Source of the DNA: Bacteroidia bacterium
Lineage (GTDB): Bacteria; Bacteroidota; Bacteroidia; DATLTG01
Reading direction: 5' to 3'
Assembly (NCBI GenBank): GCA_039924845.1
Contig: JBDTAC010000001.1
Location: forward strand, 1-64,000
Length of the DNA: 64,000 nucleotides
Positions 1,109 to 57,213 of this stretch are shown here, in pieces. A model generated the notes under the pieces. It saw nothing but the letters and a program-made list of their open reading frames with translations. It had not been told where the DNA came from and made no database searches. Both the position numbers and the translations under genes were made by a program. The stretch's first letter is position 1; every line of letters starts with the position of its first letter.

Positions 1109-1819
1109 TTAAGGGGTGGAAATAGAAACAGGAATGATTTTTCCGTTAAAATAACGATTACCATTTAGCGCAAAGCCCTTTATATAATCTGCCATTTGCA
1201 CTGCATTTACGGGTGCAGTATATTCAGGAAACGCTTTCGAAAGCATCTCTGTTTGTACTGCTCCGAGCGCTAAACAATTCAAAAAAATATTTTTCGGACG
1301 CAGTTCTTCTGCTAAACATTCCGTTAAATTTACCAATGCTGCTTTGGAAGAGCTGTAGGCTGAAAGCCCTTTAAATTTGGCACTTCCCTGAAACCCTCCC
1401 ATACTACTTATATTAACGACGTGCGTACTTCTTTCCTTTCCCATCATCGGCAACAGCGCTTGTATTAGGAACATTGGAGCAAACACATTTGTATTGTATG
1501 TATTTTGAACGTCTTGAAAAATTAATTTTTCAAACGTCCTATTGATAAGCGTTCCAGCGTTGTTTAATAAAATATCTACGGATTTTATCTCTTCGAAAAA
1601 ATAATTTTTCAAAGTAGAGATCTTCGTTACATCAGATAAATCAAAGGTTACAGGAATTATTTTTGCAGCAGCATTTATCTTCGCGCATTCTTTTTGAAGT
1701 ATTTTTAATTTCTCCGTATTACGCGCAATCGCAACAATAGTATGATTTCCATCTTTACAAAATGCCTTTACTGTTTCGAATCCAATTCCGCTACTGGCAC
1801 CTGTTACAACAATATTCAT
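1109..1819 (-). CDS. SDR family NAD(P)-dependent oxidoreductase
   Basis: A classical short-chain dehydrogenase of 236 residues. The cofactor-binding motif TGASSGIG is at residues 6-13, NNAG at 86-89, the catalytic Ser near 138-139, and Tyr155/Lys159 form YxxxK. Substrate is unknown. It is the last gene of a minus-strand operon, 6 bases after the 2-oxoacid dehydrogenase E1 gene, so it may act on acyl or keto intermediates (inference). Two copies of the window-wide AT palindrome lie inside it; one encodes Glu-Lys-Leu-Ile-Phe and the other Lys-Asn-Tyr-Phe-Phe-Glu. Confidence 0.88.
   Translation of the reverse strand: MNIVVTGASSGIGFETVKAFCKDGNHTIVAIARNTEKLKILQKECAKINAAAKIIPVTFDLSDVTKISTLKNYFFEEIKSVDILLNNAGTLINRTFEKLIFQDVQNTYNTNVFAPMFLIQALLPMMGKERSTHVVNISSMGGFQGSAKFKGLSAYSSSKAALVNLTECLAEELRPKNIFLNCLALGAVQTEMLSKAFPEYTAPVNAVQMADYIKGFALNGNRYFNGKIIPVSISTP
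1514..1614. repeat. Two intragenic copies of the AT palindrome
   Basis: 1514-1533 is a perfect 20-base palindrome (TTGAAAAATTAATTTTTCAA). 1591-1614 is a second copy with core CGAAAAAATAATTTTTC. Both lie in non-catalytic parts of the SDR gene. Confidence 0.8.
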
Positions 1820-1825
1820 ATTGAT

Positions 1826-3913
1826 TTAATAAGAAAGAATTTCTTGAATTTGTTTGCACACTTTGTCTGCATTCGGCAACATTGTGAACTCCAAAGTGGA
1901 ATTAAGTGGAATAGCTGGCAAATTTTCCGAACCAATTATATCCACGGGTGCATCTAAATAGTGAAAGCATCTTTTTTGAATGCGTCCGGCTATACTTTGC
2001 GCGAAACTATTGTTAACAGGCTCTTCCGTAAGCACAATACATTTTCCATGCGTTTTCACGGAAGCAAAAATTGTATCTTCATCTAAAGGAGCGAGCGTTC
2101 GCAAATCAATAATTTCAATTTGATTTGGAAATTTTTTTGCAGCATTTTTTGCCCAATACACGCCCATTCCGTAAGTAATCACCGTAAGCGATTTTCCTTT
2201 TTCAATCATTGATTTTTCTGCTTCTTGCACTATTCGCGCTTTTCCGAAAGGAATAATATAATCTTCATCTGGCTCAATAGTTTTCGCATCTTCCGTTCCC
2301 TTTATTTTAGACCAATACAAGCCTTTATGTTCCAACATCACCACCGGATTGGGATCGTAATAGGCGGATTTCATTAAGCCTTTTAAATCGGCTCCAGTAG
2401 ATGGATATGCAATTTTTATTCCTCGAATATTTGTCAAAACACTTTCTACACTGGACGAATGATAAGGACCTCCGCTGCCATATGCACCAATAGGAACGCG
2501 GATAATACAACTCACAGGCCATTTCCCGTTTGATAAATAACACGAACGACTTACCTCTGTGAAAAGTTGATTTAATCCAGGCCAAATGTAATCGGCAAAC
2601 TGAACTTCAACAATCGGTTTACAGCCAGTAGCTGACATTCCGACTGTACTTCCAATAATAAATGCTTCTTGAATAGGTGTATTGAAAACGCGATCGTCTC
2701 CAAATTTTTGCGCCAATGTTGCTGCTTCTCTGAAAACTCCTCCAAGTCTGCCGCCCACGTCCTGTCCGTAAAGCAAACACTCTTTGTGTTTCGCCATTAA
2801 TTCTTGCACTGCAAAAAGCGCGCAATCTACCATCACTGTTTTTTCTTTTCCTTTCGGCTCACGTTCTCCTTTTTCGATTGTAATCGGAGTTGGCGCAAAA
2901 TCATGCGTAAATAAATCTGCTGGATGTGGATCTTCTGCTTTTAACGCTTTCTCATAATCTTCACGAACAAGCTTTTCAGCCAATTTTTCTATTTTATTTA
3001 ATTCCTCCACATCAAAACCTTCCACAATAAGTTGATTGCGAAAACGCGGAAAAGGATCGCGTTTAGAGGCTTCTTCCAAATCATCACGATACCATTCTTT
3101 ACGAACGCCAGAAGTATGATGATTGAGCAAAGGAACTTTTGCATGAATCATAAACGGACGTCTTTCTTTGCGAATAATTTCCAACACTTCTTTTATTGTT
3201 TCATACGATTTAAAAAAATCACTGCCGTCAATCGTACGTGTTTCCAAGCCTTTGAAGCCTTTCGCATATTCCGTTGCATCTTGCGCCCGCGTTTCCTTTG
3301 CATTCGCAGAAATATCCCATTCATTATCTTGAATCAAATAAAGTATCGGAAATTTTTTAAGCACCGCCATCTGAAAAGCTTCTGCCACTTCACCTTCCGT
3401 AATGGAAGCATCTCCGAGCGAGCAAACCATTAGTGGTTTTTCTCCTTCTTTATAAGAAGAAATTTTTTGTTTTTCTAAATATTGAATTCCCATCGCCACG
3501 CCAGTTGCAGGGATTGCTTGCATTCCAGTTGCCGAGGATTGATGTGGAATTTTAGGCATATTATCGCGCTTCAAACTGGGATGCGAATAATACGTTCTTC
3601 CGCCCGAAAACGGATCATCGCGTTTAGCCAACAGTTGAAGCATTAATTCATAAGGTTTCATCCCGATGCCCAATAAAATACTGTCATCGCGATAATAAGG
3701 AGCAACATAATCTTGCGGCTTTAATTGCAAACCCAAAGCAAGCTGTATCGCTTCGTGTCCGCGCGAAGTAGCATGCACGTATTTTGCGGTAATTTCTTTT
3801 TTGGCTTCGTATAATTCCGTCATTGCTTTTGCGGTACACATTAATTCAAATGCTTTTCGCAGAACGGTTTCAGGAATTACAGTTTGTATTTTTTTTGTTT
3901 CGATCATCGTCAT
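1826..3913 (-). CDS. 2-oxoacid dehydrogenase E1, fused alpha-beta (thiamine-dependent)
   Basis: A 695-residue fusion of the alpha and beta subunits of a branched-chain-type 2-oxoacid dehydrogenase E1. It decarboxylates a 2-oxoacid with thiamine diphosphate and passes the acyl group to lipoyl-E2. The alpha part (about 1-340) has the TPP motif GDASITEGE followed after a normal spacing by QDNEWDIS. The beta part begins near residue 360 (VDCALFAVQEL) and contains the usual FADYIWPGLNQL segment. The fusion is common in Bacteroidota. It sits 20 bases after an enoyl-CoA hydratase-like gene and 6 bases before an SDR gene, fitting branched-chain amino acid breakdown. No E2 or E3 gene is in the window; the true substrate is not shown. 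Confidence 0.9.
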   Translation of the reverse strand: MTMIETKKIQTVIPETVLRKAFELMCTAKAMTELYEAKKEITAKYVHATSRGHEAIQLALGLQLKPQDYVAPYYRDDSILLGIGMKPYELMLQLLAKRDDPFSGGRTYYSHPSLKRDNMPKIPHQSSATGMQAIPATGVAMGIQYLEKQKISSYKEGEKPLMVCSLGDASITEGEVAEAFQMAVLKKFPILYLIQDNEWDISANAKETRAQDATEYAKGFKGLETRTIDGSDFFKSYETIKEVLEIIRKERRPFMIHAKVPLLNHHTSGVRKEWYRDDLEEASKRDPFPRFRNQLIVEGFDVEELNKIEKLAEKLVREDYEKALKAEDPHPADLFTHDFAPTPITIEKGEREPKGKEKTVMVDCALFAVQELMAKHKECLLYGQDVGGRLGGVFREAATLAQKFGDDRVFNTPIQEAFIIGSTVGMSATGCKPIVEVQFADYIWPGLNQLFTEVSRSCYLSNGKWPVSCIIRVPIGAYGSGGPYHSSSVESVLTNIRGIKIAYPSTGADLKGLMKSAYYDPNPVVMLEHKGLYWSKIKGTEDAKTIEPDEDYIIPFGKARIVQEAEKSMIEKGKSLTVITYGMGVYWAKNAAKKFPNQIEIIDLRTLAPLDEDTIFASVKTHGKCIVLTEEPVNNSFAQSIAGRIQKRCFHYLDAPVDIIGSENLPAIPLNSTLEFTMLPNADKVCKQIQEILSY

Positions 3914-3933
3914 AAACCTCCTTCTATTTTCAT

Positions 3934-4755: not shown

Positions 4756-4821
4756 GTTTGAAAAAATAATTTTTTGAAGCATAAAAAAAGCGTTTGAAAA
4801 ATTAATTTTTCAAACGCTTTT
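4756..4821. terminator. Two palindrome copies, one a perfect 36-base hairpin
   Basis: 4786-4821 is a perfect palindrome: AAAAGCGTTTG, then AAAAATTAATTTTT, then the complementary CAAACGCTTTT. It lies 20 bases downstream of the stop of the collagen-like gene and can act as a terminator for it. A second copy (4756-4780, TTTGAAAAAATAATTTTTTG core) stands next to it, upstream of the enoyl-CoA hydratase-like gene. Confidence 0.75.
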
Positions 4822-12134: not shown

Positions 12135-12205
12135 GCTTCGAAAAATTATTTTTTTGAAGCAAGAAATTTCAAGCTAAAAACGAGTTTGGAAAAATAATTT
12201 TTCAA
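12135..12205. repeat. Two intergenic copies of the AT palindrome
   Basis: 12135-12160 has arms GCTTCGAAAAA and TTTTTTGAAGC around TTAT (one G-T pair). 12184-12205 is GTTTGGAAAAATAATTTTTC followed by AA. They lie between tig and the stop of the next minus-strand gene and may terminate the latter. Confidence 0.75.
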
Positions 12206-12213
12206 CCCTGTTT

Positions 12214-12879
12214 TTAGTCTTTTTCGAATTGTTGCAACGCATCTGATTCGTAAATAGTAGTTCCAAAATTATTTTTTTGAACGATGGAAATCATTGCTTT
12301 TGCAACTGTTTCCGCTTCAACGCCTTTGTATTTTTTTAAAGGTCCGAAAAATAAAAAACTAAATAATTTCATTGTTATCATCGCCAAGGCTTCTAAAAAT
12401 CTTCGATCATTCCGATCTCCTAAAATAAGCGAAGGGCGAACAATGGAAAGACTTTCAAAACCCATCTCGGAAAATTTTTTTTCGATTATTCCTTTTGTAT
12501 TGAGATAAAAATTACTTGATTTTTCATCGGCGTCTAAAGACGAAATCAAGACGCATTTTTTAATTCCATTTTGTCTCGCGAAAGCGGCAAATTGTGTAGG
12601 ATATCCAAGATCTATTTTCAAAAAATTATTTTTTGAACCCGCTTTTTTTAGCGTCGCTCCGAAACAACAAAACAGTTCATCTCCCTTTATTAAAGGTGCG
12701 TAGCGTTCCATCGCATCAAAATCAATAATACAATGTTGAATTTTCTCACTCGGAAAAGAAACCGGTTTTCGCGCAAAAATTTTTATGCATGAATAATCTT
12801 CATTTTGCAACAATTGTTGCAAACAAAAATTGCCAACAAGTCCAGAAGCACCAATTATTACAGCTGTTTTTTTTGTCAT
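12214..12879 (-). CDS. NAD(P)-binding Rossmann protein (TIP30/HTATIP2-like)
   Basis: A 221-residue atypical SDR with the nucleotide-binding loop IGASGLVGN near residue 9, a SSLDAD segment and a STYxxxK-like YLNTKGIIEKKF near 145. Such proteins bind NAD(P)H; the substrate is unknown. It follows dtd and mazG in one operon (8-base gap). Two AT-palindrome copies lie inside it, each giving Lys-Asn-Asn-Phe (near residues 83 and 206). Confidence 0.75.
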   Translation of the reverse strand: MTKKTAVIIGASGLVGNFCLQQLLQNEDYSCIKIFARKPVSFPSEKIQHCIIDFDAMERYAPLIKGDELFCCFGATLKKAGSKNNFLKIDLGYPTQFAAFARQNGIKKCVLISSLDADEKSSNFYLNTKGIIEKKFSEMGFESLSIVRPSLILGDRNDRRFLEALAMITMKLFSFLFFGPLKKYKGVEAETVAKAMISIVQKNNFGTTIYESDALQQFEKD

Positions 12880-12887
12880 TCGAAAAA

Positions 12888-13235
12888 TTATTTTTTCAAC
12901 ACGTTTATTTTTTGTAATTTTTTATTTTGCAGATGTCTTATTTTGTCGCGTTTTGTTTTTTTCTCAATATTTTTTTGAAGTGCTTCCGTCAAATCAATTC
13001 CAGTTTGATTGGCGAGGCAAATCAACACAAATAAAACATCCGCTAATTCATCTGCCAATTCTTTTTTTGAATCCGATTTTTTAAAGGATTGCTCTCCGTA
13101 TTTGCGTGCCATAATTCGCGCTACTTCTCCCACTTCTTCGGTTAAAATCGCCATGTTCGTTAATTCATTAAAATATCGAACGCCGTTCGTTTTTATCCAT
13201 TCGTCCACTAATTTTTGCGCTTGTTGAATCGTCAT
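12888..13235 (-). CDS. MazG-like nucleotide pyrophosphohydrolase
   Basis: I choose the start at 13235 (MTIQQAQKLVDEW), two bases after the dtd stop; the longer reading from 13283 lies inside dtd. The 115-residue protein has the MazG fold metal-binding motifs EEVGE and ELADELADVLFV, as in enzymes that hydrolyse (d)NTPs to NMP and pyrophosphate. The C-terminus ends Val-Leu-Lys-Lys-stop, with the Lys-Lys-stop and the following bases formed by an AT palindrome (12879-12899). Confidence 0.85.
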   Translation of the reverse strand: MTIQQAQKLVDEWIKTNGVRYFNELTNMAILTEEVGEVARIMARKYGEQSFKKSDSKKELADELADVLFVLICLANQTGIDLTEALQKNIEKKTKRDKIRHLQNKKLQKINVLKK

Positions 13236-13839: not shown

Positions 13840-13862
13840 TTTGAAAAATTATTTTTTTGAAA
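13840..13862. repeat. Intergenic AT palindrome
   Basis: GTTTGAAAAATTATTTTTTTGAAAG core, in the 270-base divergent gap between dtd and the OmpA-like gene. No other clear element is seen in that gap. Confidence 0.7.
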
Positions 13863-19226: not shown

Positions 19227-19247
19227 TTCAAAAAAATAATTTTTCAA
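19227..19247. repeat. AT palindrome at the mfd 3' end
   Basis: TTCAAAAAAATAATTTTTCAA immediately after the mfd stop. A second small inverted repeat (tgctgaaataattcagca, 19201-19218) follows it. Either may end mfd transcription. Confidence 0.75.
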
Positions 19248-19248
19248 A

Positions 19249-35219: not shown

Positions 35220-36437
35220 ATGAAACGAAAAATAAAATTTCTATTTTTTCTAATTCTGATTTTTGCTTTTGCACAAATTAGCAAAGCCCAAAATAAACAA
35301 TTGCATTATACTTCTTATGGAAAAGATTCTACTAAAACAGAAGTAGATTGGTATAATAATCATCAAAAAAGGAAAGAAATAATTACTGAGCCAAATGGAA
35401 TTGAAGTGAAAAAATATTGGTGCGCAAATGGGCAATTGTTATTGAAAGATTCTTTAAAAAATCATTTACTGATAAACCGATTGGTTTGTAACGATACTAA
35501 AGGAGTTCCTTTAAATATAGGAACATTCAAAAATGGCAATGGTATTTTGTTAAGCTATTCCGATATGGAATATTTTTATGGTGGGGACAACACTGATAAA
35601 GTGAAAACAAGTTATACTTACAAAAACGGAAGACGATATGGATTGACAGTAACTTATTTTGATTATCCAAAAGATACTTCGGGAATATATCATTACGATA
35701 AAAATGGTGCTGTTACTGGAAAATATATTCAATATTTTTCTAATCACAAAGAGGCAGAAGTGGGCTATTATAAATCTGGACAGCAACAAGGTTTGGTAAA
35801 AACTTACAACACAGATGGTAAATTGATAGAGGAAAGCAACTACGTAAATGGAAAATTAATTAGCAAAAAAGATTTTTTAAATGAGAACAAAGTTGTAGAT
35901 GATAAAAAAAGAATCGCAATTATTAATTCATTTTTAAATGCACTAAAAACAAATTACAATCCAGATAGTGTTCGGTTTAAATATTATTATCCAAAAGTAC
36001 TTGCGCTTCTTTATAGTAAATATTTAGCTTTTAGTGAAAGTGATACATCTGATATTTATCAACAACAGAAAGTAGATATAAGAACAGAAAATAACTTGAT
36101 AAAAGAATTAAGTGATAGTGTAAAAAAGAATAAATATATTGTATTGAATTACAAAACAGCAGAAATAAAATATCCTCATGTCGCTTCTTATAGTCGTTAT
36201 TCGTCCAGTCCAACCAATTCGTATTACTATTCATTAAAAGATGTATTTGTTATAGTTTTTGAAAAAAAATTCTACCGTTACATTTTGATGCGCGGAAATA
36301 AAATACAAGATATTCTTTATGGTATTTATAATCCAAAGGCTCTTGATTATTGGGTATTTCCAGTTGATTATGGATATACTTATAAAGTAAATTTTTGGGA
36401 TGATACTGTTAAAATACCTTTGATTTTAAAGAAGTAA
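35220..36437 (+). CDS. Secreted MORN-like repeat protein
   Basis: A 405-residue protein with a signal peptide ending at SKAQ. Residues about 120-220 contain MORN/YwqK-type repeats (YKNGRRYGLTVTYFD, YDKNGAVTGKYIQYF, YKSGQQQGLVKTYN, YVNGKLI). The C-terminal half is unclassified. Such proteins occur widely in Bacteroidota without a proven role. Its 5' region repeats the sequence context seen before the OmpA-like gene at 13.9 kb (tatttttatc preceded by an AT palindrome). Confidence 0.7.
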   Translation: MKRKIKFLFFLILIFAFAQISKAQNKQLHYTSYGKDSTKTEVDWYNNHQKRKEIITEPNGIEVKKYWCANGQLLLKDSLKNHLLINRLVCNDTKGVPLNIGTFKNGNGILLSYSDMEYFYGGDNTDKVKTSYTYKNGRRYGLTVTYFDYPKDTSGIYHYDKNGAVTGKYIQYFSNHKEAEVGYYKSGQQQGLVKTYNTDGKLIEESNYVNGKLISKKDFLNENKVVDDKKRIAIINSFLNALKTNYNPDSVRFKYYYPKVLALLYSKYLAFSESDTSDIYQQQKVDIRTENNLIKELSDSVKKNKYIVLNYKTAEIKYPHVASYSRYSSSPTNSYYYSLKDVFVIVFEKKFYRYILMRGNKIQDILYGIYNPKALDYWVFPVDYGYTYKVNFWDDTVKIPLILKK

Positions 36438-36438
36438 T

Positions 36439-36508
36439 TTAAAAAATAATTTTTCAAAGCCCTAAAATCAACACGAAAATTCACCTTCAAAAAAATAATT
36501 TTTCAAAC
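36439..36508. repeat. Two AT palindromes between the MORN-like gene and asnS
   Basis: 36439-36458 follows the MORN-like stop; 36485-36508 reads CTTCAAAAAAATAATTTTTC plus AAAC. No other terminator is seen here. Confidence 0.75.
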
Positions 36509-39473: not shown

Positions 39474-39495
39474 CTCAAAAAAATAATTTTTCGAA
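39474..39495. repeat. AT palindrome between rpoN and tyrS
   Basis: CTCAAAAAAATAATTTTTCG core in the 49-base gap. Its position within a likely operon argues against a strong terminator at this copy. Confidence 0.75.
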
Positions 39496-40796: not shown

Positions 40797-41211
40797 TATT
40801 GATTTGAAAATTAAAAAAAGAGTCCTCAAAAAAATAATTTTTCAAATCATTTTTTTAATTTCTTTTTTCTTGAAAAAAGGGACATTTTGTACTTGATACG
40901 GAATCTGCGCGTAAGGGAAAGTCTCATCTAAATTATCTCCAAAGGAGGACTTATTATTCTGCTCCATAGGAGCAAAATAGTAATAATGAATAAGCAATCG
41001 TTAAACCATTTTTAGATCTGAGGGAGCGAAATAATATTGAGTACAAAGAGAAATATTATTTCGCCTCTTCGGAACTTTATTTTCTTAGAACATTATTGCT
41101 AATAAGATTAAACTCATAAGGAGCTATGAAATAAATTGTGATTTTGGGTACAGCAATCGGAGTAATAGTGGTTATGTTGCCAAAAAAGCACAATGAACAA
41201 ACATTTATAAA
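40797..41211. other. 415-base gap with palindrome and hairpins
   Basis: 40826-40846 is an AT palindrome after tyrS. Further on are a small hairpin CTCCaaaGGAG (40937-40948), a hairpin around TGCTCCataGGAGCA flanked by attatt/aataat (about 40954-40986), and a 13-base inverted repeat GCGAAATAATATT / AATATTATTTCGC (41026-41064). No coding sequence is seen. The stretch lies directly before a decayed mrr gene and may be a remnant of the event that damaged it. Confidence 0.5.
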
Positions 41212-41573: not shown

Positions 41574-41642
41574 ACACAATCGCTAACAATGGTTTTACGT
41601 TAGTTGGAAAATATCATTTCAAAACAATTCAGAATCTACTCA

Positions 41643-41660
41643 TTGAAAAATTAATTTTTC
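41643..41660. repeat. AT palindrome overlapping the 3' end of the pgpH-like gene
   Basis: TTGAAAAATTAATTTTTC. On the minus strand it contains the last codons (Pro-Lys-Asn) and the stop of the HD-domain gene. Confidence 0.7.
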
Positions 41661-43750
41661 GGATACTCCATCCGCACGTGGTAAATATTGACCAATTTAC
41701 GTTTCAGAATTTTTTTAACAGTTGTAATATCTTTGAAAGTAATATCCGCATTGTCAAATTGTTTTTGCTCCATTTGTCCGTTGATAATTTTATCAATTAA
41801 AGCTTCAATGGTTTCCTCTTCAAAAGATTTCAAACTTCGAGAAGCTGCTTCTACAGAGTCTGCCATCATTAGTACAGCAGTTTCTTTCGAATACGGAATT
41901 GGTCCTGGATAACGGAAATCATTTTCATCCAACATGCCATCCAACACTTGTTTTTTATACGTATTAAAGAAAAAAGCAGTAACCATTGTTCCGTGATGCG
42001 TACGAATAAAATCAATAATTTTTTCAGGAATTTTATGTTTTCGTGCCTTCTCAATGCCTCTAATAACGTGGCTTATAATGATAGATGCACTTTCTTCGCT
42101 GGGTAATTCTTCGTGCGGATTTACGCCTGTACTTTGATTTTCGATAAAGAAAAAAGGCATATCCATTTTTCCGATATCGTGATACAGCGCGCCTGTACGC
42201 ACTAATTGAGGATTTCCGCCAATACTAAAAATGGCTTCTTCCGCAAGGTTTGCCACTTGCAAAGAATGTTGAAACGTACCGGGTGCTTTCGATGCCAATT
42301 CGCGCAACAGCGGATTATTAGTATCGCACAATTCCATCAAAGAAACATCCGAAATAAAACCAAATGTTTTTTCAAAAACAAAAATAAGCGGATACGAAAA
42401 AAGTGTAAGTCCGGCACTCAGCAAAAAATAAATATAATTGTGCCAATTTACGGCTTCGCTTGTATCGCCTTCCACAATTGAAATTCCTATAAAAGCCAAG
42501 CAATACATAAAGAAAATAATTCCAGCAGAATAAAATATCTGAGAACGTTTTCCCAAATTTAAAATACTGAAAATCGCAACCATCCCCACCACTAATTCGA
42601 TGAAAATAAATTCGAAACGATTGGGCGCGAGAAAAGATAAAATCAGGATGTTGACCAAATGTGTAAAAAGCGCCACGCGCGTATCAAAGAAAGCACGCGT
42701 CATAATCGGTAAAATACAAAACGGAAGGATGTAAATGCTGACATCGTATTGCGCTGAAAATACTGCCATCATTACAAATATGACAGTCATCAATAAAATA
42801 AAAGTAAGTTGAGAGTTGTCTGAAAAAACATTTTTTCGAAACAGAAAAATGAAGAAAAATAAAACCGATAAACAAATCGAGACAACAATTATTTGTCCGC
42901 CCAAAATGAAAAAATAATTACTGCTGTTATTAGTTTGTCCTTCGTATTCTGTCTTTAAAGAGTGTAATATTTCGTATTTATCCGCATCCACAATTTCACC
43001 TTTTCCGATGATACTTTGATCTTTTACAATTTCTTCGTGCGAAGGCGAAAGGCTTTCCAATTGCTCTTTTAAGGCTTTGTCAGAAATATCTTTGTCGTAA
43101 AAAGTATTTTGTGCGATACAATTTTCCAATACCGGAAGCAATACTTTTTTATCCTCTTTTTCATCGGAAGAAACAGCTTGTTCCATAAAATTATAAGCCG
43201 TTTGTACGGTATAAAAATCCGCTAATTCTTTTTCGGAAGACGTATTGTTTTCCACTACAAAAATGCTGAAATCCGGCGGTTTATTATCCAACACATCGCT
43301 TAACTGAACAATACCTTTTTTGTAAACAGAATCGAGAATGGCAAGTCCTTTTAAATATGCAATTGTTGCGGCTGAATGTTCGATGGTATCTAAATCATCC
43401 AGCGTTAAATCTTTTCCTTTTACACTTTTCCAATTTTCTATAAAATGGGTATTGAAAATTTTTTTTTCAGATTCTAAAACGGTATGGTTTACTTTAAAAT
43501 ACGGTTTGAAATTTTTGAGCAATTCGTTTTTTTCTGCCGTTAATTCTTGATTTGTTTTTTGGATGGAGAAATTAAACGGAGCAATTAAATTTTCGTGCTG
43601 CCAAGGTTTTCCTTGAATTCCAGAAATATCGTATTTGAATTTTCCTTGTTTCGGAAATAGAAAGACAATCAATATAAGCGTTGCTAAAAAAATAAATATT
43701 TTATAGATTTCGGAATGCTTATTCCACAAATAGGTCAGTGCTTTTTTCAT
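41651..43750 (-). CDS. 7TM receptor-type HD phosphodiesterase (YqfF/PgpH family)
   Basis: A 699-residue membrane protein. It has one N-terminal TM segment, an extracytoplasmic 7TMR-HDED domain (to about 275), seven TM helices (about 280-470) and a cytoplasmic HD domain with YHDIGKMDMPFFF near residue 523 and RTHHGT. Characterised relatives (PgpH) hydrolyse cyclic di-AMP, so a role in that signalling is likely but inferred. The start follows the DUF2279 stop by one base (TGAGATG), so translation is coupled. Confidence 0.88.
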   Translation of the reverse strand: MKKALTYLWNKHSEIYKIFIFLATLILIVFLFPKQGKFKYDISGIQGKPWQHENLIAPFNFSIQKTNQELTAEKNELLKNFKPYFKVNHTVLESEKKIFNTHFIENWKSVKGKDLTLDDLDTIEHSAATIAYLKGLAILDSVYKKGIVQLSDVLDNKPPDFSIFVVENNTSSEKELADFYTVQTAYNFMEQAVSSDEKEDKKVLLPVLENCIAQNTFYDKDISDKALKEQLESLSPSHEEIVKDQSIIGKGEIVDADKYEILHSLKTEYEGQTNNSSNYFFILGGQIIVVSICLSVLFFFIFLFRKNVFSDNSQLTFILLMTVIFVMMAVFSAQYDVSIYILPFCILPIMTRAFFDTRVALFTHLVNILILSFLAPNRFEFIFIELVVGMVAIFSILNLGKRSQIFYSAGIIFFMYCLAFIGISIVEGDTSEAVNWHNYIYFLLSAGLTLFSYPLIFVFEKTFGFISDVSLMELCDTNNPLLRELASKAPGTFQHSLQVANLAEEAIFSIGGNPQLVRTGALYHDIGKMDMPFFFIENQSTGVNPHEELPSEESASIIISHVIRGIEKARKHKIPEKIIDFIRTHHGTMVTAFFFNTYKKQVLDGMLDENDFRYPGPIPYSKETAVLMMADSVEAASRSLKSFEEETIEALIDKIINGQMEQKQFDNADITFKDITTVKKILKRKLVNIYHVRMEYPKN

Positions 43751-43751: not shown

Positions 43752-44675
43752 TCAAAAATACAAGGGTTTAAAATAAACTTTTTTCTGAGTAAATTCCAAT
43801 GTTGGCGCTGGAATTTTTATAAAATCAGTGGTTTCAAAAATGGTTTCAACAAAAGGTGAAACATTTGGTAAGCGAGTAAAATCGGCGCCTGGCGCGAAAA
43901 AAAATTTCCGATAACGCTTAAAAACAATCGGATTTCCAAGCGAATCTTTCATCTCTGGATTTTTCATACCGCCCGTCATTCCTTCTGCTCCGTAACCAAA
44001 ATCCATATCCAACCATTTCGGAAAATTAGTTCCAGTTTTCACAAAAGAAGAAATATTTGCAGCAAACCAATAGGTTTGTCCGTTGTAATCTTTCACTAAA
44101 TTTTCCCACAAATTACTGCCTAATTCATCCGGACGATAACTCGAATAAATGCTGGCATGATAGGAAAATTGCATAGAAACACGTTGCTCATTCCAAGCCA
44201 ATTGCTGCCCGATTAACAAAGTTGCACCAAGTGTATTTGCTGTCATATCTCCCATCGAAAATCCCCATTCTTTCGAAAAACCGTCTGCTACTTCTACCGT
44301 CGCTAAAAACAGTAAACCCAAGCTGCCGCCGTACCAAATAGATTGTTGATTGCTTACTCCACTCCAACGCAAAGCATCCATTCCTAATCTTCCCACATTG
44401 TACGATGTGGTAAAATGACCCATTTTATCCATTTGTTGCCACTCGCCATTATCGTTAAAAAAATGAAAAGGAGAATGCGGATATTTCTTGTACCAAATAC
44501 GGCTCAAGCCAATCATAGTTACGGCGTAAATCAAGCTTTCTGAAATAACAACTCCCGTAAATCGTCCGCGATTAAATGTAGGCGAAGGCGTAAAAAAATT
44601 TTCCTGCGCATTTATGTGCCTCGGAAAAAGAAGGCTTAAAATAAGGAGTAGAAAAATTATTTTTTTGAAGTACAT
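43752..44675 (-). CDS. DUF2279 family protein
   Basis: A 307-residue protein with an N-terminal signal peptide (to HINAQ). Residues about 85-175 carry the DUF2279 hallmark (MDKMGHFTTSYNVGRLGMDA, DMTANTLGA). Function unknown; the domain is thought to be periplasmic or outer-membrane associated. It lies 9 bases after the giant SPOR protein and one base before the pgpH-like gene. An AT palindrome falls within the signal peptide and reads KKIIFLLL. Confidence 0.82.
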   Translation of the reverse strand: MYFKKIIFLLLILSLLFPRHINAQENFFTPSPTFNRGRFTGVVISESLIYAVTMIGLSRIWYKKYPHSPFHFFNDNGEWQQMDKMGHFTTSYNVGRLGMDALRWSGVSNQQSIWYGGSLGLLFLATVEVADGFSKEWGFSMGDMTANTLGATLLIGQQLAWNEQRVSMQFSYHASIYSSYRPDELGSNLWENLVKDYNGQTYWFAANISSFVKTGTNFPKWLDMDFGYGAEGMTGGMKNPEMKDSLGNPIVFKRYRKFFFAPGADFTRLPNVSPFVETIFETTDFIKIPAPTLEFTQKKVYFKPLYF

Positions 44676-44684: not shown

Positions 44685-47600
44685 TTATTGCAATAGCTTT
44701 TGAGCTTCGTCCAATGTTATTTTTTTTCCATTGTTGAAAGCCACCACAAAAGCGTCTGTAATACCAGCTTTCACGATTTTATCTTTCAAAGTAACAGCAT
44801 CATCAAAAGTAGAAAAACTTCCTGTCGTATAAATCGTTATTCCGTTTTCATCCACAAAACTATTCACACCATTTCCGCCAAGCGCTAAAAATTTATTTGC
44901 TATGTCTAATGGAATTTGTTTTTTGTACGCACCAATTTGAACTTTAAAAACAATTTTATTTCCAAACGTATTTTTATCTGGAACATTTGTATTTGAAGTA
45001 TTTGGCGGATTTGTTGTATTCGTATTTGTTGGCGGATTACTATTTACTGAATTATTATTTTGCGACTTAATACTTGTCTGATTATTTTGCGATGGCATCA
45101 CATTCGTGTTCGCATCGCTGGTATATTGGGCTTGTCTGGAACTAATCAAGGTTTTTGCTTTATCTGGATCAATGCGAGTACCATTGTAATACGCCGTTAC
45201 AAATGCGTCTTTAATTCCAATTTGGACGATCGTATTTTTAGCCGTATTTGCTTTGCCGAAATCGTTAAACTTACCGCTGTTGTAGCGAATAAAACCATTC
45301 GTTGTTTTTGCGCTGTACAAAGGCTGAATATTAAATAATTTGGAAGCAGGTTCAGGACGCTTATAAACGCCCACTTGAACCGTATAAAACAATCCTTTTA
45401 CTTGTACCACATCTGTTGAAACAGCAGCATTCACTGTATTTTCAGAACTATTTGTTGTAGAAATATTTTTATTTTGATTGTCCTGATTTGTATTGCTATC
45501 TGCTGAAGATGCTTGTTGTTGTGTATTGTCCGAAGTGTTTTTTTCATTTGAAGAGGAATGCAAAGCAGCCATCGCTTCGTTCATCGGTACACGTTTTCCG
45601 TTTACAAAAGCTACCACAAATGCGTCTTTATAACCCATTCCGATTATTTTATTTTTCGCATCGTCTGCTTTGTCAATGCCCGTGAACATTCCGGCAGAAT
45701 ATCGGATAAACCCTTGAGGTGTTGTTTCCCCAATAACAGGTTTCATTCCTTTAAATAAATCTTGCGGAATTTGATTCCTGAATGCACCTATTTGCACTTT
45801 AAAATAAACTCCATTCGGCATTTTCGGATTTATTGGAATCGGATTACTTGTAGTATAAACTGGTGTTTGCGAAGCTTCAAAAACATCCGTCAATGAAATA
45901 GAAGTTTCATTCACAGCAGTATTTGAATTGCCTTTATTCACCGAATCTGAAGAAGCAGTGGTTGAAAAATTATTTTTCGGAACCGCCGAATTGTCTGTTG
46001 TTGTAGTATTCGATTTTACATTTGTATTTGCAGGATTTTCTTGTGTAGAATTTATATTGTTATTCGATGCAATCGTATTCGTTGTATTGTTGTTATCAGA
46101 AGTATTCGTGTTGTTTTTAGGATTCAAATTAGTAACCGAATTGGTTGAATTATCCGTATTTATTGGAGGAGTTGAAACAGTCCCAATGTTGGATGCTGTC
46201 TGCTTATCCAATGAATTCAAATACGTTGCTGCGTCTGCTTTTTTGTTGATGAAATTGGATTGATTTTGATTCGCCAAAGTAGTTAATGAATCAGATTTAC
46301 TTTTATTCAAGTTTGCCTGGATTGCTTCGTATTGAGCCTTTTCAAGCAGGTTTTGTTTTTGTTCAGAATCCTTAATGGTATCGGCGACGGTTTTATTTTG
46401 TGTCGCAGAATCTGCTTCTGCAGCCGAAATTGTTTTGTAATTATCTGCCGCAGCAAAATTTGTTTTCGAAACATTTTTCAGCGAATCCGACTGATTAATC
46501 ATCGCTATATATTTTTGATATTCCGCCGTATTTTTAATTTTTTGATTGTCGGAAGAAGCAGTAGAATTAATATTTTGCGATTGATTTTTCAGATTATCAG
46601 CTGAAGAAATTGATTGCCCATTATTCGTTTTTACAGTATTGTTTGTTGGATTATTTCCAGTGTTATTAGGCGCAGCATTTATAGCCACAGCAGTTGAATT
46701 CGAATTTTGATTTTGATTGAACTGAGTCGCTACATCTGGCGCGTATTTCGAGTAAATCGCAATCGCTTTTTGTTGTTTCGACAAAGCCATATTTTCCTCA
46801 TTCCGCGCATGTTTCAGTAAATATTCTTTTCCTGTATAATCAGATTCTTGCGCTGCCGAATTTCTATCTTTTTGGGCATTGTTGTAATGAAGTGTTGCGT
46901 CATCTTTCATCGCTCCAGCAATCAATAAATCGTCATCGTCTTTGCTGGCAGTGGCTTCCGAAAATTTTTCTATTTCTTGATTGTTTTTAACATACTGAAT
47001 TTCATCTGCTTTTGCATACGCGTTATCCGACTGCAATTGCGCTTGTTGAGCCTGTGCTTGCGCGGCATTCGCATTTTCAATCAATTGTGTTTTTTGAGCC
47101 GTATCTTTTTCCGACGAAGCATTTTGCATCAATTCCGTGTATTTATCATTTTCTTTTGCAGCTTCTTGTTCCGATTGTTTTGCCTGATTTTCATTGTTTA
47201 CGGCATCAGTAGACGAATACAATGGAATTGTTTTTGTAGCGTCTAAAGAATTATTTTTAGCATTGGAAGAAGTTGTATTTCCATTATCTGAAAAATTATT
47301 TTTTGAAACGGTTTTACTTGAATCACTTGTAGAATTAGTATTCGCAGGAGTTACTGTATTATTTTTAGAAGTATTTACACTCGCTGTATTCGTGCCGTCT
47401 GAAAAATTATTTTTCGAAATCGTTTTACTCGAATCACTTGTAGAATTCGTATTATCAGGAGTGCCTGTATTATTTTTAGAAGTATTTACTCTCGCTGTAT
47501 TTGCGCTGTCTAAATTATTATTTTTTGAAACAGTTTTAGTTGAATCACTTGTAGAATTCGTATTATCAGGAGTGACTGTATTATTTTTAGACGTATTTGC

Positions 47601-50600
47601 ACTTGCTGTATTTGTGCTGTCTGAAAAATTATTTTTTGAAATCGTTTTACTCGAATCGCTTGTAGAATTGGGATTTCCTGAATTCGTATTTTCTGTACTC
47701 GCCAAATTTTGCTTAATTGTTTCTGCTTGCTGATTGCTTTGTTGCGCAAGACTTTGCTTCGTATAGAAATCCTTTTGCAAACTCGCAATTGTTTGTTCTG
47801 CTGATTTTTTTTCTTTTTTAGTTTTGATTGTTTTTAAGTCGGTTTTCTTTTCGGAAATATCATTTTTAATGGCAGCTGCCCAATCGGAATACACCGCAGA
47901 TTTAGCTTCTTCGCGATTATACGCATCCGGAATTTTTTCTGCTTCCGCTAAAGCGTCTGAATATTTAGTGGAATAATTGCTGCTGTCAGCTGTTTTATTT
48001 TCCGTAGAATCACCCGCCGAAAAATTATTTTTTTGAACACTCGAATCTGTAGTAGAATTACTGTTATTATTTGCTATAACTGTTTGTTGATTGGTTGTTT
48101 TATTGGTCGTGTCAGCACTGTTTTCTGCAGTATTTGCTTGTTTGTACGACGAAACTTCTGCTTGTAATTTTTGTTTATCAATGGATGAAACATCCGAGTT
48201 GGAAGGGTTTTGCGCACCTTGTTTTATCTTCGTAATCATTCCACTCGACATACTCAACTGATCTTTCAGATCATTCGACTCATCCTGTAACTCTGATGCC
48301 TTCTTGCTTTCCGAAGCAAGGTCGTTTTGTTTTTGGGTACGTTCCGTTTTTAATTCATTCACCTGACTTTGCAAATCTTGCTTCAATGTTTGATTGCTGC
48401 TCGTATCTGCTTGCGCTTGCATTTGATTGATATTGTTGTCCAAATCTGTTAATTGCTGCTGATTATTCTTCAAAGTTTGGTTCGCATCGTTCGCTTCTGT
48501 TTGCTTATTATCCGCATCCGATTTCAAATTATTATACACATTATCAGTACCAACAGGCTGCTGATTCATTTTTTCCAAACTATCTTTTTGCACCGCCAAT
48601 TGTTTCAAGGCATCGTCCGCATTTTTAGAATTGGAATGAACAACTTTGTCTAATTGCTTCGCATAATTTTGAGAAAAGTCCGCTTCTTGGCGCTTTGCTG
48701 TGGCATCGCTTTGTAATTTTGTAGCAATGTTAAAAGCAGCCACTGTTTCTTTTGCCGATTTAGAAGCATCCTTTTTTGCATCGTTGTAATCTTCTAAAGC
48801 AGCTTGTTTCTGCGATGGATCCTGAGTTTGATCGGCTTTTGTTTGCAATTCATCTGCTTCTGAATTTTTATCTTTCGTTTCTTCGTTTTTTTCGTTTGCG
48901 ATGGAAAGCGCCATGTCCGCCTGCTTTTGCATGTCTTTCGCTTCCTTATCGGATTCTTTTGCATCGTTGTACGCAATTTTTACGATGTCAGAATTAGATA
49001 AATTGGAATTGATAACTTTCGAAGAATCACCGCCACCATCAGTATTAGATACCGTTGAAGAACTATCAGGGCTCGAAGTATTGGAAGATTCCAGCGAATC
49101 TTTGTAAATGCCCAAATTGGTATTTTTATTCGCGGCAAGCGAATTATTATTACTATTATTTTGAGAAGTATTTTTATCCTTCTCATTTCCACCGTTCGAA
49201 AAATTATTTTTTGAAGACGACGTACTGTCTGCGTTCACATCCAGTTTCGCGCGTTGCTTGATGTAATTCATCGCCAGTAAATAATTGTTGTCGTCTATTG
49301 GTTGATCAAATAAATTTTTGATGATTAATTTTCCAGTTCCTGCTTCGTAACTAATTTCTTGTTTCAGCGGTTTCAACTCGTACTGAACAGGAATCGTAAC
49401 CATGCCTGATTGTGTTTTAAAACCATCCGTTTCTACTGTAAATAAAAATTTTCCGCCATTGGGAAGATTCATAAAATAATTTCCAGTGCTATCATTTCCT
49501 TTAAAAATCCCTTCTATTTCATTGGTTTCCATGTTTTGCACCGTAATTTTAGCATCTAAATGTTGATTGTTTTCTGTTTTTACAATTTCTCCTTTAATGA
49601 TAGAAATATCAACAGGTTTACGAGCTACATTGATTTTATAAATCATAATTTTTCCATCTGGACTGGAGCGATTGGACGAGAAATACGCCATCTGCTCATC
49701 TGTATCGGTGATGTATAAAATATCGTCATCAGGCGTATTTACAGGAAAATCAAGATTTACGGGTTGTTGCCAACTTTTTGTACTATCGTTCCAAGTGGAT
49801 TTAAACACATCATAACCACCCATGCTGTTGTGCCCTTTCGAACAAAAATAAAGTACTTTTCCGTTGGGATGAAGAAAAGGATAATCCTCGTCATATTCTG
49901 TATTGATAGGGTATCCTACGTTTTGTGGTTTACTCCATTCTCCCGAAGGTAATTTACGAATCACATAAATATCTTTCCCATTTTCTCCGTTTTTTCCGTA
50001 GCTCGAATAATAAATTTGATTGTTGTTTTTTGAAAGAAAAATAATAGAGTTTACTTTTTGTTTTTTATCGTACGGAGTTTTAAAATCATCTGGTTCTACC
50101 AATAATTTTCCACCAATATCTGGCAAATTATAGGAAAGAAAATAATCTTCCACCGTCAATTCCTTTTTCTCAATCACATCCAAGCCACTGATGTTTCGCA
50201 ATAATTTTTTTCCGTTACGACACATTTCAATTTGACGATCAATTTGAAATTTCTCTACTTGAGATTTTTCACCCAGCGTTTTGTATTTCTGATACATCGC
50301 AATAGCATCGTCAAAACGATAATTTAAATGATATGCTTTTGCCAAATAATAAAAAACATTTTTATCTACATTGGGTTGTTTGGAAGCATATTCAAGGTAT
50401 CCAATTGGTTTTTCCTTATCGCCGGTAGAAAGTAAAATACACACGCTAAATTTAAAATTATACTCTCCACTTTTAGGGTCAAGGCTTAGCAATTGCGAGT
50501 ACAAAGGGTAGGCAGAGGTAAAATCTTCTTTATCGAAAAATTTAGCGGCTTGCTTTTTCAGATCTGCTTCCGATTTATACGCACTTTGTCCATGAACAAT

Positions 50601-53631: not shown

Positions 53632-54213
53632 ATGACACGCAAAAAATTATTTTTCACAAGCCTTTTTTTAATTTCCGCAATTACAATTTCTACTTTTTTG
53701 TCTTCGTGTTCTACGCAAAGTAGACATCAGAGCCAGGTAAAATACATGGATAGTTTAGCGACGCAATTGGATCAAGCAGCATTGAATTTGAAAAAAGTAG
53801 ATACCGTTGTTATTCGTAAAAATTTCAATACGTTGCTAAAAAACCTTTCCTTGATTCAGAAAAATTACAAAGACACAATGGACAGTCCGACGGCTATTTT
53901 CCTTTCTGGATACCGCGAAACAGGAAGAGCGTTCGAGATTTTTTTGGGAAGAGATACGCTGTTACAAAATCAAATTTCAAAATCAATAAAACAATTGAAA
54001 AGTTTGGAACACGATGTGAAAAACAATTTGATTGATGAAAATAAAGTGCAATCTTATTGTGCCAACGAATGTTCGGAAGCAGCGGAATTATTGGAAGCAA
54101 GTTCCGTGAGCATTGCCATTATCAACGAAAAATTGCCGATGTTTGACATACAAAATCCGAAGGTAGAAGAGCTGGTGAAAAAATATTCTTCGTCGGGCGA
54201 TTCAAAAAAATAA
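53632..54213 (+). CDS. Lipoprotein, unknown function, 193 aa
   Basis: Lipobox TFLSSCS. Mostly helical with no recognised domain; the spacing of charged and hydrophobic residues suggests a helical bundle. It lies 15 bases after serS. The C-terminus SKK-stop is provided by an AT palindrome (54201-54222). Confidence 0.7.
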   Translation: MTRKKLFFTSLFLISAITISTFLSSCSTQSRHQSQVKYMDSLATQLDQAALNLKKVDTVVIRKNFNTLLKNLSLIQKNYKDTMDSPTAIFLSGYRETGRAFEIFLGRDTLLQNQISKSIKQLKSLEHDVKNNLIDENKVQSYCANECSEAAELLEASSVSIAIINEKLPMFDIQNPKVEELVKKYSSSGDSKK

Positions 54214-54222
54214 TTTTTCAAA
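54201..54222. repeat. AT palindrome supplying the stop codon
   Basis: TTCAAAAAAATAATTTTTCAA; read in the gene's frame as Ser-Lys-Lys-stop, so the palindrome spans the end of the lipoprotein gene. Confidence 0.8.
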
Positions 54223-54234: not shown

Positions 54235-56073
54235 ATGCGTCAGAAAATTAATTTTTCAGTCATTTTTCTGATTTCGCTTTTTGTGCTTAGCGCGAAAATA
54301 ACTATTGCGCAAGACTCCACCAATATTGCCTTAGCGCAACAATATTATCAAAATAAAGAATACGATAAAGCTATTTTTTATTTCGAAAAAAATTATACAA
54401 ATGAATCGGAAACATTTATTTACAAAGCGTATGTAGATTGTTTTGTACAAACGCAAGATTTTAAAAAAGCGGAAAAAATCGTCAAAAAAAGAATTAATTA
54501 TTCTCCCGAAAACTTGCGCTATTATGTGGATTTAGGACAAATATATGCTTTTGCAAATGATAAGGACAAAGAGAAAGATGCGTATAAAAAAGCCATCAAA
54601 GAATTGAGTCCGAACCAAAACCAAATTTTAGATTTAGGACAAGCATTCATCGCTGTAAAGCAATGGGACGAAGCGATTGAGACGTATAAAAAAGGAAAGA
54701 AATTATTAAACGGTGATTATCCTTTTCTTTTTGAATTGGCAGAAGTTTACAACAATATGGGCAATACGTCGGAGATGATTGACGAATATTTGGATGCGCT
54801 CGACATCAGCGATGGCTATATACAAAGTGTGCAAAATGCGCTGCAAACCAGTTTCGGGCAAGATGCAGATGCGAAGAAAAATGAGATATTAAAAACAGAC
54901 CTTTTAAAACGCATTCAACACGAGCAGAGCAAAACTATTTTTTCGGAATTATTGGTGTGGATGCAAATTCAAGAAAAGGATTTTGAAGGTGCCTTTATTC
55001 AAGTAAAAGCATTGGATAAACGCAATAAAGAAAGTGGAACTCGAATGATGTCTTTGGCTAAAGTGTGTGCCGATAATGGTAATTACGATGTTGCCAATCA
55101 ATCGTATCAATACGTAATTGATTTGGGAAATTCTGGATTTAATTACATGCACGCACGCATCGCGCAATTAAATTTGTTGTACAAAAAAGTCGTTTCAAAA
55201 AATAATTTTTCAAACGCCGATTTAATGTCGCTCGAAAATAAATACAAAATAGCGTTGGATGATTTAGGTAAAAATACGTCCACTGTGCCGATGATGAAAG
55301 ATTTGGCGCACATCGAAGCATTTTATTTACACAATACAGATACAGCAATTGTTGTGCTGAATGAAGCGATTGAAGTCCCGCAAATTTCCGGAAAATTACA
55401 AGCAGAATGCAAATTGGAATTGGGCGATGTATTGCTTTTTGACGGACAAATTTGGGAAGCATCTTTACGTTATTCGCAAGTGGAGAAAGCCTTTGAAGAA
55501 GATCCGATTGGCGACGAAGCCAAATTTAGAAACGCAAAAATTTCCTTTTATACAGGAGATTTTAAATGGTCGAAAGCGCAATTGGATGTGTTGAAATCTG
55601 CTACTTCTAAATTGATTGCAAACGATGCGATGGCACTTTCGCTGTTGATAAGTGACAATACCGCAATTGATACGAACACCGTGCCTTTGTTGATGTTTGC
55701 GCAAGCAGATTTATTGGCGTATCAAAATAAAGACGATGCTGCAATTCAAAAATTAGATTCCATTACCACCTTGTTTCCCAATCACAGTTTGACGGGCGAC
55801 ATTTATTACAAGAAATTTGAAATCCGAAATAAAGAAGGAAAATATGAAGAAGCTGCTACCTTTTTACAAACCATTTTAGATAATTTTCCACAAGGAGTTT
55901 TAGCAGATAAAGCACTTTTTAATTTAGCAGAACTCAATGAAGAGAAGTTAAATGATACCGAAAAAGCAAAAAAGTTATACGAACAATTATTAACCGATTA
56001 TCCGGGAAGCCTTTACGCGACGGATGCACGCGAGCATTTTCGGAAATTACGTGGCGATAAAATAGTAAATTAA
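54235..56073 (+). CDS. Secreted TPR protein, 612 aa
   Basis: Signal peptide to TIAQ, then TPR repeats over nearly the whole length (QQYYQNKEYDKAIFYFEKNY, DLGQIYAFANDKDKEKDAY, ending in a KAKKLYEQLLTDYPGS unit like YbgF/BamD). Probably a scaffold in the envelope. An AT palindrome inside encodes SKNNFSNAD between TPR units near residue 323. It lies between the lipoprotein and DUF4286 genes with short gaps. Confidence 0.85.
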   Translation: MRQKINFSVIFLISLFVLSAKITIAQDSTNIALAQQYYQNKEYDKAIFYFEKNYTNESETFIYKAYVDCFVQTQDFKKAEKIVKKRINYSPENLRYYVDLGQIYAFANDKDKEKDAYKKAIKELSPNQNQILDLGQAFIAVKQWDEAIETYKKGKKLLNGDYPFLFELAEVYNNMGNTSEMIDEYLDALDISDGYIQSVQNALQTSFGQDADAKKNEILKTDLLKRIQHEQSKTIFSELLVWMQIQEKDFEGAFIQVKALDKRNKESGTRMMSLAKVCADNGNYDVANQSYQYVIDLGNSGFNYMHARIAQLNLLYKKVVSKNNFSNADLMSLENKYKIALDDLGKNTSTVPMMKDLAHIEAFYLHNTDTAIVVLNEAIEVPQISGKLQAECKLELGDVLLFDGQIWEASLRYSQVEKAFEEDPIGDEAKFRNAKISFYTGDFKWSKAQLDVLKSATSKLIANDAMALSLLISDNTAIDTNTVPLLMFAQADLLAYQNKDDAAIQKLDSITTLFPNHSLTGDIYYKKFEIRNKEGKYEEAATFLQTILDNFPQGVLADKALFNLAELNEEKLNDTEKAKKLYEQLLTDYPGSLYATDAREHFRKLRGDKIVN

Positions 56074-56079
56074 AAAATC

Positions 56080-56379
56080 ATGATAATATACAACGTTACC
56101 ATCAACATTGAAAACGAAGTGCACGACGAATGGTTGAAATGGATGCGCGAAGTGCACATTCCAGATGTGATGAAGACAGGCTGTTTTGTAGAAAATAAAC
56201 TCTGCAGAGTGTTGGTAGAGGAAGAAACAGGAACGACGTATTCTTTCCAATATACGAGTAAAACAATGGACGATTATTTGAACTATAAAAAGCAGCATGC
56301 AGCGCGTTTGCAAAAAGACGTAAGCGAAAAATTCGCTAATAAATTTGTCGCTTTTCGTACATTATTAGAAGTGCTTTAG
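56080..56379 (+). CDS. DUF4286 family protein
   Basis: A 99-residue protein (MIIYNVTINIENEVHDEWL, YSFQYTSKTMDDYLNYK) of the ferredoxin-like dimeric alpha/beta type. Function unknown; it is usually found next to rsmA in Bacteroidota, as here. Confidence 0.85.
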   Translation: MIIYNVTINIENEVHDEWLKWMREVHIPDVMKTGCFVENKLCRVLVEEETGTTYSFQYTSKTMDDYLNYKKQHAARLQKDVSEKFANKFVAFRTLLEVL

Positions 56380-56421
56380 GAAAATTATTTTTTCAAAAAC
56401 ATATTTTTAAATTTCATAGAT

Positions 56422-57201
56422 GTGACTTTCGTTAAAGCAAAAAAACACCTCGGACAACATTTTCTGAAAGACGAAAATATTGCACACAAAATCGTGAATA
56501 GCTTGTCGGGAGAGGGTTACACGAATGTGTTAGAAATTGGTCCGGGCATGGGTGTGCTCACTCAATTTTTATTTCAAGAAAAAAAATTCGAAACATCCAT
56601 CATCGATATTGATCGCGAATCCATTGATTTTTTAAAAAAGAAATTCCCGTCATTCGAAAAAAAAATTCTGGAAGGCGATTTTTTACAACTGGATTTGAAA
56701 ATGCTTTTCAGCGATTCTTTCGCTGTTATCGGCAATTTTCCATACAATATTTCTTCTCAAATTTTATTCAAAGTATTAGAAAATAGAAACCAAGTAGTGG
56801 AAACGGTTGGGATGTTTCAGAAAGAAGTGGCAGAACGAATTGCCGCGAAAACACGTACCAAAGCGTACGGAATTCTCAGCGTTTTGGTACAAGCATTTTT
56901 TGATGTAGATTATTTATTTACCGTCAATGAAAATGTTTTTAATCCGCCGCCAAAGGTCAAATCGGCGGTGATTCGTTTGAGAAGAAAAGCCAATTTTCAA
57001 TTGGGTTGCGATGAAAAATTATTTTTCGACGTGGTGAAAACAGGATTCAATCAGCGTCGCAAAATGCTGCGAAACGGATTGAGTAAATTTACCTTTTCGG
57101 AAGAAAATAAAACACATAAATATTTTACACAACGTGCCGAAGAGCTTTCTGTTGCTGAATTTTCGGAAATAACGAATTGGATTAGTGCTTCGAAAAAATA
57201 A
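56422..57201 (+). CDS. rsmA: 16S rRNA dimethyladenosine transferase RsmA (KsgA)
   Basis: A 259-residue SAM-dependent enzyme that dimethylates two adjacent adenines in 16S helix 45. It has the GQHFLKDENIA start region, SAM motif EIGPGMGVLT, and catalytic GNFPYNISSQ. Translation must start at GTG 56422, because the nearby ATG at 56420 runs straight into TGA. The gene ends Ser-Lys-Lys-stop inside an AT palindrome (57187-57213), and 56380-56398 holds another copy upstream. Confidence 0.97.
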   Translation: MTFVKAKKHLGQHFLKDENIAHKIVNSLSGEGYTNVLEIGPGMGVLTQFLFQEKKFETSIIDIDRESIDFLKKKFPSFEKKILEGDFLQLDLKMLFSDSFAVIGNFPYNISSQILFKVLENRNQVVETVGMFQKEVAERIAAKTRTKAYGILSVLVQAFFDVDYLFTVNENVFNPPPKVKSAVIRLRRKANFQLGCDEKLFFDVVKTGFNQRRKMLRNGLSKFTFSEENKTHKYFTQRAEELSVAEFSEITNWISASKK

Positions 57202-57213
57202 TTTTTTGAACGC
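57187..57213. repeat. AT palindrome supplying the rsmA stop
   Basis: CTTCGAAAAAATAATTTTTT core followed by GAACGC and a T-run; the TAA at its centre is the rsmA stop. Confidence 0.8.

Follow-up and report, generated by a model that had tools for sequence, protein, structure and literature searches.

Introduction

Only a handful of short sequences are known that have reached thousands of copies in a bacterial genome through drive. Sequence-specific DNA uptake is, to our knowledge, established only in the Pasteurellaceae and Neisseriaceae. The DNA-uptake sequences (DUS) of the Neisseriaceae are dense, lineage-specific, used as terminators and thinner in acquired DNA; they are continuous and non-palindromic, and their receptor is the minor pilin ComP. 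The palindrome HIP1 of cyanobacteria (GCGATCGC) is 8 bp long, GC-rich and tied to GATC/CGATCG methyltransferases. A repair-based origin has been proposed for HIP1 (PMC4390886), and uptake sequences evolve through point mutation (PMC1939737). The uptake signal sequence (USS) of the Pasteurellaceae, with ~1,300 copies in Haemophilus influenzae (PMC5217627), has AT blocks beside its core (PMC12616744), and its pairs are used as terminators at 3′ ends (PMC5217627). Transformation in Bacteroidota appears to rely on proteins other than type IV pili (PMC8459023), and Riemerella columbina, also a member of this phylum, shows in transformation a preference for its own DNA, for which no signal is known (PMC7965970). 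Here we describe a 22-bp AT-rich palindrome found in a stretch of 64,000 nucleotides (hereafter the window; positions 1 to 64,000 of contig JBDTAC010000001.1, assembly GCA_039924845.1) from a Bacteroidia bacterium of lineage DATLTG01. It appears to behave most like USS and DUS in how its copies accumulate, and the reading that we rank first, though tentatively, is that it could be a genome-wide, protein-read self-DNA recognition signal accumulated by drive, in the manner of DNA-uptake sequences.

Abundance, distribution and lineage restriction

The source genome (2.66 Mb in 101 contigs, 99.1% complete) represents a deep Bacteroidia lineage whose closest ClpX relatives share 73% identity. Non-overlapping matches to the pattern TTYRAAAAAWTAWTTTTTYRAA were binned by mismatch number, giving 11, 5, 17, 16 and 17 matches in the window at 0, 1, 2, 3 and 4 mismatches, against means of 0, 0.02 and 0.22 at 0, 1 and 2 mismatches in 100 dinucleotide shuffles. 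At ≤2 mismatches, 34 matches were counted versus a shuffled mean of 0.24, with 3 in the top shuffle. Copies were studied in detail in 1.73 Mb pulled in stretches (65% of the genome), where 271, 264, 314 and 365 matches at 0, 1, 2 and 3 mismatches compared with 0, 1, 11 and 66 in order-5 Markov sequence (849 versus 12 at ≤2 mismatches). Across the whole genome, the 16-bp core gave 615 matches on one strand and 631 on the other, compared with 1 and 2 for the reversed pattern, while 834 copies were found at ≤1 mismatch and none for the reversed control. An earlier note, made from the letters of the window, had described a strong excess of 40–45 copies counted by eye between 1514 and 57213, about one per 1.4 kb in gaps and in genes, and had proposed a whole-genome count against a Markov background; the counts above bear this out, with 49 copies in the window at ≤3 mismatches, one per 1.3–1.5 kb, and the outermost near-consensus sites at 1513–1534 and 57189–57210.

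The palindrome is restricted to the source lineage among the genomes compared, the nearest of which belong to the same class, as the earlier note had supposed in calling it lineage-specific. At ≤1 mismatch, 0–4 copies were found in each of the other Bacteroidia genomes (295 genomes scanned, source included) and 0–3 in a further, partly overlapping sample of 248 Bacteroidota genomes, against the 834 of the source; at ≤2 mismatches, 33 named relatives held 0–13 copies and their controls 0–7. None of these other Bacteroidota genomes had a palindrome excess of this size. The note had not recognised the sequence, and likewise no copy matched Rfam at gathering score and our literature searches found no Bacteroidota motif of this kind.

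The density of 0.68 per kb at ≤3 mismatches scales to an estimated ~1,800 copies per genome, and, site-poor stretches aside, copies per 10-kb bin are near Poisson (mean 6.9, variance 7.6). With genes called by a hexamer model (~88% coding), the core pattern has a density of ~4 per kb between genes against 0.38 per kb within them, and ~65% of the gaps of 60–400 bp carry at least one copy. Density is highest (10–12 per kb) 10–40 bp past stop codons, a gene-end bias for which the note had suggested a check, and is low 20–40 bp ahead of start codons. Intergenic copies peak at the perfect match (251, 212, 195 and 167 at 0, 1, 2 and 3 mismatches) whereas coding copies climb with mismatch (20, 52, 115 and 171), as would be expected if selection for the motif opposes protein constraint.

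Stretches of 10–13.6 kb without sites (13.6, 13.0 and 10.2 kb) are present genome-wide. Contig C14 (L023:1-18660) has 1 palindrome in 18.7 kb and carries polyhydroxybutyrate genes (two phaC, thiolase and CoA-ligase genes), and a universal stress protein is encoded along with a CusB/RND efflux cluster at the site-poor start of contig C57; other site-poor stretches hold ordinary genes, e.g., urocanase, with GC content not unusual, so that such DNA may be called acquired only presumptively. The site-poor accessory stretch that the note had placed from hsp20 to the end of the window stood in weak form: 57963–64000 contains three copies at 2–3 mismatches and none at 0–1, but from the density in the rest of the window ~1.7 would be expected there, so that the window end alone proves little.

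Anatomy of the palindrome

The 22-bp consensus TTYRAAAAAWT/AWTTTTTYRAA (the slash marking the dyad) is centred on a TpA step. The core given by the earlier note, A5-TAA/TTA/TTAA-T5, is better written as W-TA-W with outer positions of C/T and then G/A, and ATAA, TTAT, ATAT and TTAA are all found at the centre. From the dyad outward, each half-site reads (A)(W)TTTTT(Y)(R)AA, followed by 3–4 GC-richer bases and an AT block at 15–20 bp. AT blocks lie on both sides of the dyad at about 17, 31 and 42 bp, those at 31 and 42 bp being weaker, and control AT runs of similar length elsewhere are without them. Beyond the core, the copies have composition in common, not sequence, and there is no extended homologous flank.

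Neighbouring copies prefer centre-to-centre spacings of 35–37 and 47–50 bp, which could let two copies share AT blocks. When sites with even weak neighbours were removed, the blocks near 17, 31 and 42 bp stayed in gaps, and in genes the 17-bp block stayed and the 31-bp block did so weakly; phasing beyond ~45 bp was largely lost, indicating that distant phasing is largely due to neighbouring copies. A longer wrap of ~130 bp, considered from 10.6-bp phasing out to 136 bp, is not claimed. Dyad symmetry, independent half-sites, tolerated Y, R and W positions and two-sided AT blocks together point to a reader protein that would be dimeric and DNA-bending.

Copies inside genes and hairpin-forming copies

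At ≤2 mismatches, 162 coding copies were counted, whereas shuffling of codon order gave 1.5 and synonymous shuffling 39. This excess over both backgrounds indicates that the DNA motif shapes even the encoded peptides, QKNNFS among them. The copies in HisS (IEKINFLKQ) and in an AcrB-type pump (LRKINFLRD) align to solved homologues without gaps, and that in MutS (SEKIIFQL) shows a 2-residue gap, shorter than the element and not a 7-residue insert. In these three genes, a small sample, the motif replaces residues without obvious insertion, which argues against a pasted-in element and for copies built in place by point substitution, even inside genes. A thiolase copy was dropped from this evidence, since it lies in a predicted N-terminal extension ahead of the aligned domain, probably a mis-called start. 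A search of IMG/VR returned no paired sites.

Most copies have asymmetric cores, and their flanks show no more pairing than flanks whose partners were shuffled between sites; the TTAA-core class is the only one with clear flank pairing. The arms of ~90% of intergenic copies vary independently, as half-sites of a dimeric DNA-binding protein would, and these copies are not RNA hairpins. Extended stems, typically preceded by an A-run and followed by a T-run, were found in 55 (~11%) of the 500 intergenic copies with ≤2 mismatches, and only these have the GC-containing pairing stem and following T-run of an intrinsic terminator. Stable folds occur in 24–27% of 3′-end copies versus 6% in divergent gaps, upstream regions and genes, and this hairpin minority, mostly at 3′ ends, looks like terminators built on the motif, i.e., a co-opted use.

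A candidate self-DNA recognition signal and its alternatives

As a self-DNA signal, the ~1,800 copies would be read as double-stranded DNA by a probably dimeric, DNA-bending protein, each copy consisting of two inverted half-sites TTYRAAAAAWT joined at the TpA step. Point substitution would create copies and bring them closer to the consensus wherever genes permit, so that gaps and 3′ ends fill and genes keep weaker copies; DNA bearing the signal would be preferentially taken up or recombined, copies would build up in the lineage, and recently acquired DNA would be without them, while the minority extended into 3′-end hairpins may double as bidirectional terminators. We infer the protein reader and the uptake role. 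Build-up by substitution, the perfect-match peak in gaps, an almost even distribution apart from some site-poor stretches and the co-opted, terminator-like copies favor an uptake-like mechanism. The presence of ComEC and DprA in the genome and the own-DNA preference of R. columbina are also counted in its favor. As in uptake sequences, the excess is strong and genome-wide at roughly one copy per kb in genes and gaps, with copies that appear to come by point substitution, not insertion, in the three genes compared. The palindrome resembles USS in a copy count of the same order, its place in both genes and gaps, its point-mutation origin, its AT blocks and its 3′-end terminators, and DUS in high density, lineage specificity, terminator use and thinning in acquired DNA.

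Several points weigh against a self-DNA signal. USS has a 9-nt non-palindromic core, AT blocks on one side only and a dependence on type IV pili, whereas the palindrome has a 22-bp palindromic core, AT blocks on both sides and a genome in which no pilus ATPase was found; DUS is also non-palindromic, and the motif here is a dyad without the orientation of an uptake sequence. Known uptake sequences depend on type IV pili, and canonical pilus-based uptake was rejected because the type IV pilus/type II secretion system ATPase (PF00437) was not matched anywhere in the 99.1%-complete genome; ComEC and DprA, for their part, occur widely among bacteria. No clear enrichment of the palindrome was seen in a small set of genome-maintenance genes picked by regex, and DUF5689, one Bacteroidota transformation protein (PMC8459023), was not found in the source genome. 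Since a non-palindromic motif and pilus machinery were both looked for and neither was found, the palindrome is not filed as USS or DUS.

The copies might instead be binding or nucleation sites of an abundant dimeric nucleoid-associated protein, which would bend DNA at the dyad, make AT minor-groove contacts on both sides and organize the chromosome, its sites being kept by selection. We place this second, close behind the self-DNA signal and likewise tentatively. It would account for dyad symmetry with independent half-sites, for AT blocks that survive removal of neighbour-like sites and are missing around matched AT runs, for the preferred spacings with their potential for shared blocks and for the avoidance of the region 20–40 bp before start codons, and the genome contains three HU-family genes. 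Nevertheless, we know of no nucleoid protein that keeps ~2,000 near-perfect sites, enzymes included. Lrp/AsnC, which would suit wrapping, is absent, and a wrapping reader of this type was rejected as PF01037 had no match in the genome; moreover, acquired-looking, equally AT-rich DNA is without sites, which is not the pattern of a xenogeneic silencer. On this reading, positions along a bacterial chromosome would be encoded with unusual explicitness, and a nucleoid protein whose thousands of high-affinity sites are maintained in evolution would be almost as novel as a self-DNA signal.

The remaining explanations appear improbable to differing degrees. Primary use as a bidirectional intrinsic terminator, with one stereotyped stem reused across the lineage, would agree with the density peak after stop codons, with the long stems flanked by A-runs and T-runs and with the concentration of stable folds at 3′ ends, but it is unlikely, as covariation is missing between the arms of most copies, those with asymmetric cores, ~89% of intergenic copies are without an extended stem, and a terminator would serve no purpose or do harm at the many copies found inside genes or in divergent gaps; an RNA hairpin or terminator as the general explanation was rejected for want of covariation. 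A product of DNA modification or repair bias, with no binding protein, has its closest named precedent in HIP1, likewise a highly iterated palindrome spread across genes and gaps; this seems a still poorer candidate, because methyltransferase sites are far shorter than 22 bp with AT-block flanks, the Y, R and W changes that are tolerated and the AT flanks resemble protein contacts, and the AT-rich sequence is entirely different from that of HIP1, although methyltransferases were not searched for. High copy number and palindromic form would also suit a dispersed mobile repeat inserted many times (repetitive extragenic palindromic (REP) element, miniature inverted-repeat transposable element or other palindromic element), but this is highly improbable given the ungapped HisS and pump copies, the mere 2-residue gap in MutS and flanks alike only in composition. 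Among the analogues named in the earlier note, DNA-uptake sequences appear to fit best in behaviour; HIP1 does not fit by sequence, and REP or other insertion elements are disfavored by coding substitution and the missing homologous flank.

In its most specific form, the self-DNA reading would make the palindrome the first sequence-specific self-DNA signal in Bacteroidota, a palindromic, AT-flanked uptake signal with a pilus-independent dimeric DNA-bending receptor and ~1,800 copies in one deep lineage, a proposal that we hold somewhat more cautiously than the general one. If true, it would be an independent case of sequence-specific uptake, in a lineage where no type IV pilus motor was detected, and the palindrome is a concrete, testable candidate for the type of signal that could lie behind own-DNA preference as in R. 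columbina.

Copies and other features of the window

Table 1. Palindrome copies in the window at up to two mismatches (CDS, coding sequence)
Match	Position	Strand	Context
1 mismatch	1513..1534	.	within CDS 1109-1819(-)
perfect consensus	1592..1613	.	within CDS 1109-1819(-)
perfect	4757..4778	.	intergenic; partner copy at 36 bp
perfect	4793..4814	.	hairpin-forming GCGTTTGAAAAATTAATTTTTCAAACGC between A-run and T-run; terminator-like
perfect	12137..12158	.	intergenic; partner copy at 48 bp
2 mismatches	12185..12206	.	intergenic
2 mismatches	12616..12637	.	coding
1 mismatch	12879..12900	.	start of CDS 12214-12879(-)
perfect	13840..13861	.	intergenic
perfect	19227..19248	.	3′ of mfd-like gene 19249-22632(-)
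2 mismatches	21563..21584	.	within mfd-like gene 19249-22632(-)
perfect	22710..22731	.	intergenic; partner copy at 48 bp
2 mismatches	22758..22779	.	intergenic; perfect extended stem GTGCTCGAAAAA/TTTTTCGAGCAC
2 mismatches	30281..30302	.	coding
perfect	33208..33229	.	3′ of CDS 32389-33207(+)
2 mismatches	35141..35162	.	intergenic
2 mismatches	36437..36458	.	intergenic; partner copy at 49 bp
perfect	36486..36507	.	intergenic
1 mismatch	39474..39495	.	intergenic
1 mismatch	40825..40846	.	intergenic
2 mismatches	41642..41663	.	end of CDS 41651-43750(-)
2 mismatches	42819..42840	.	coding
2 mismatches	44648..44669	.	intergenic
2 mismatches	47287..47308	.	1992-aa gene; peptide VSKNNFSDN
2 mismatches	47620..47641	.	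1992-aa gene; peptide ISKNNFSDS
2 mismatches	48016..48037	.	1992-aa gene; peptide VQKNNFSAG
2 mismatches	49195..49216	.	1992-aa gene; peptide SSKNNFSNG
perfect	54201..54222	.	overlaps 3′ end of a CDS
1 mismatch	55193..55214	.	coding; peptide VSKNNFSNA
2 mismatches	56376..56397	.	intergenic
perfect	57189..57210	.	overlaps 3′ end of CDS 56422-57201(+)
2 mismatches	62904..62925	.	coding; site-poor window end
2 mismatches	63372..63393	.	intergenic; site-poor window end

The 1992-aa protein (44685–50663, minus strand) has a long N/S/K-rich low-complexity region and, by eye, SPOR-like C-terminal repeats. Its gene carries the palindrome at 47287, 47398, 47509 and 47620 with an exact period of 111 bp, so that a 37-aa tandem repeat carries the palindrome along as SKNNFS. 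Among the other genes of the minus strand, 4842–7016 encodes a 724-aa protein with collagen-like triple-helix repeats (PF01391), and 28855–32376 a 1173-aa protein without a Pfam match. The window starts inside a 16S rRNA gene (1–610, minus strand), where the contig appears broken at the rRNA operon, and in its site-poor end a DUF805b cis-regulatory RNA motif (Rfam RF02914; 61445–61477, plus strand) lies at the 3′ end of a small CDS. GC skew turns from negative to positive around position 23000 of the window, which may reflect gene strand or a replication feature.

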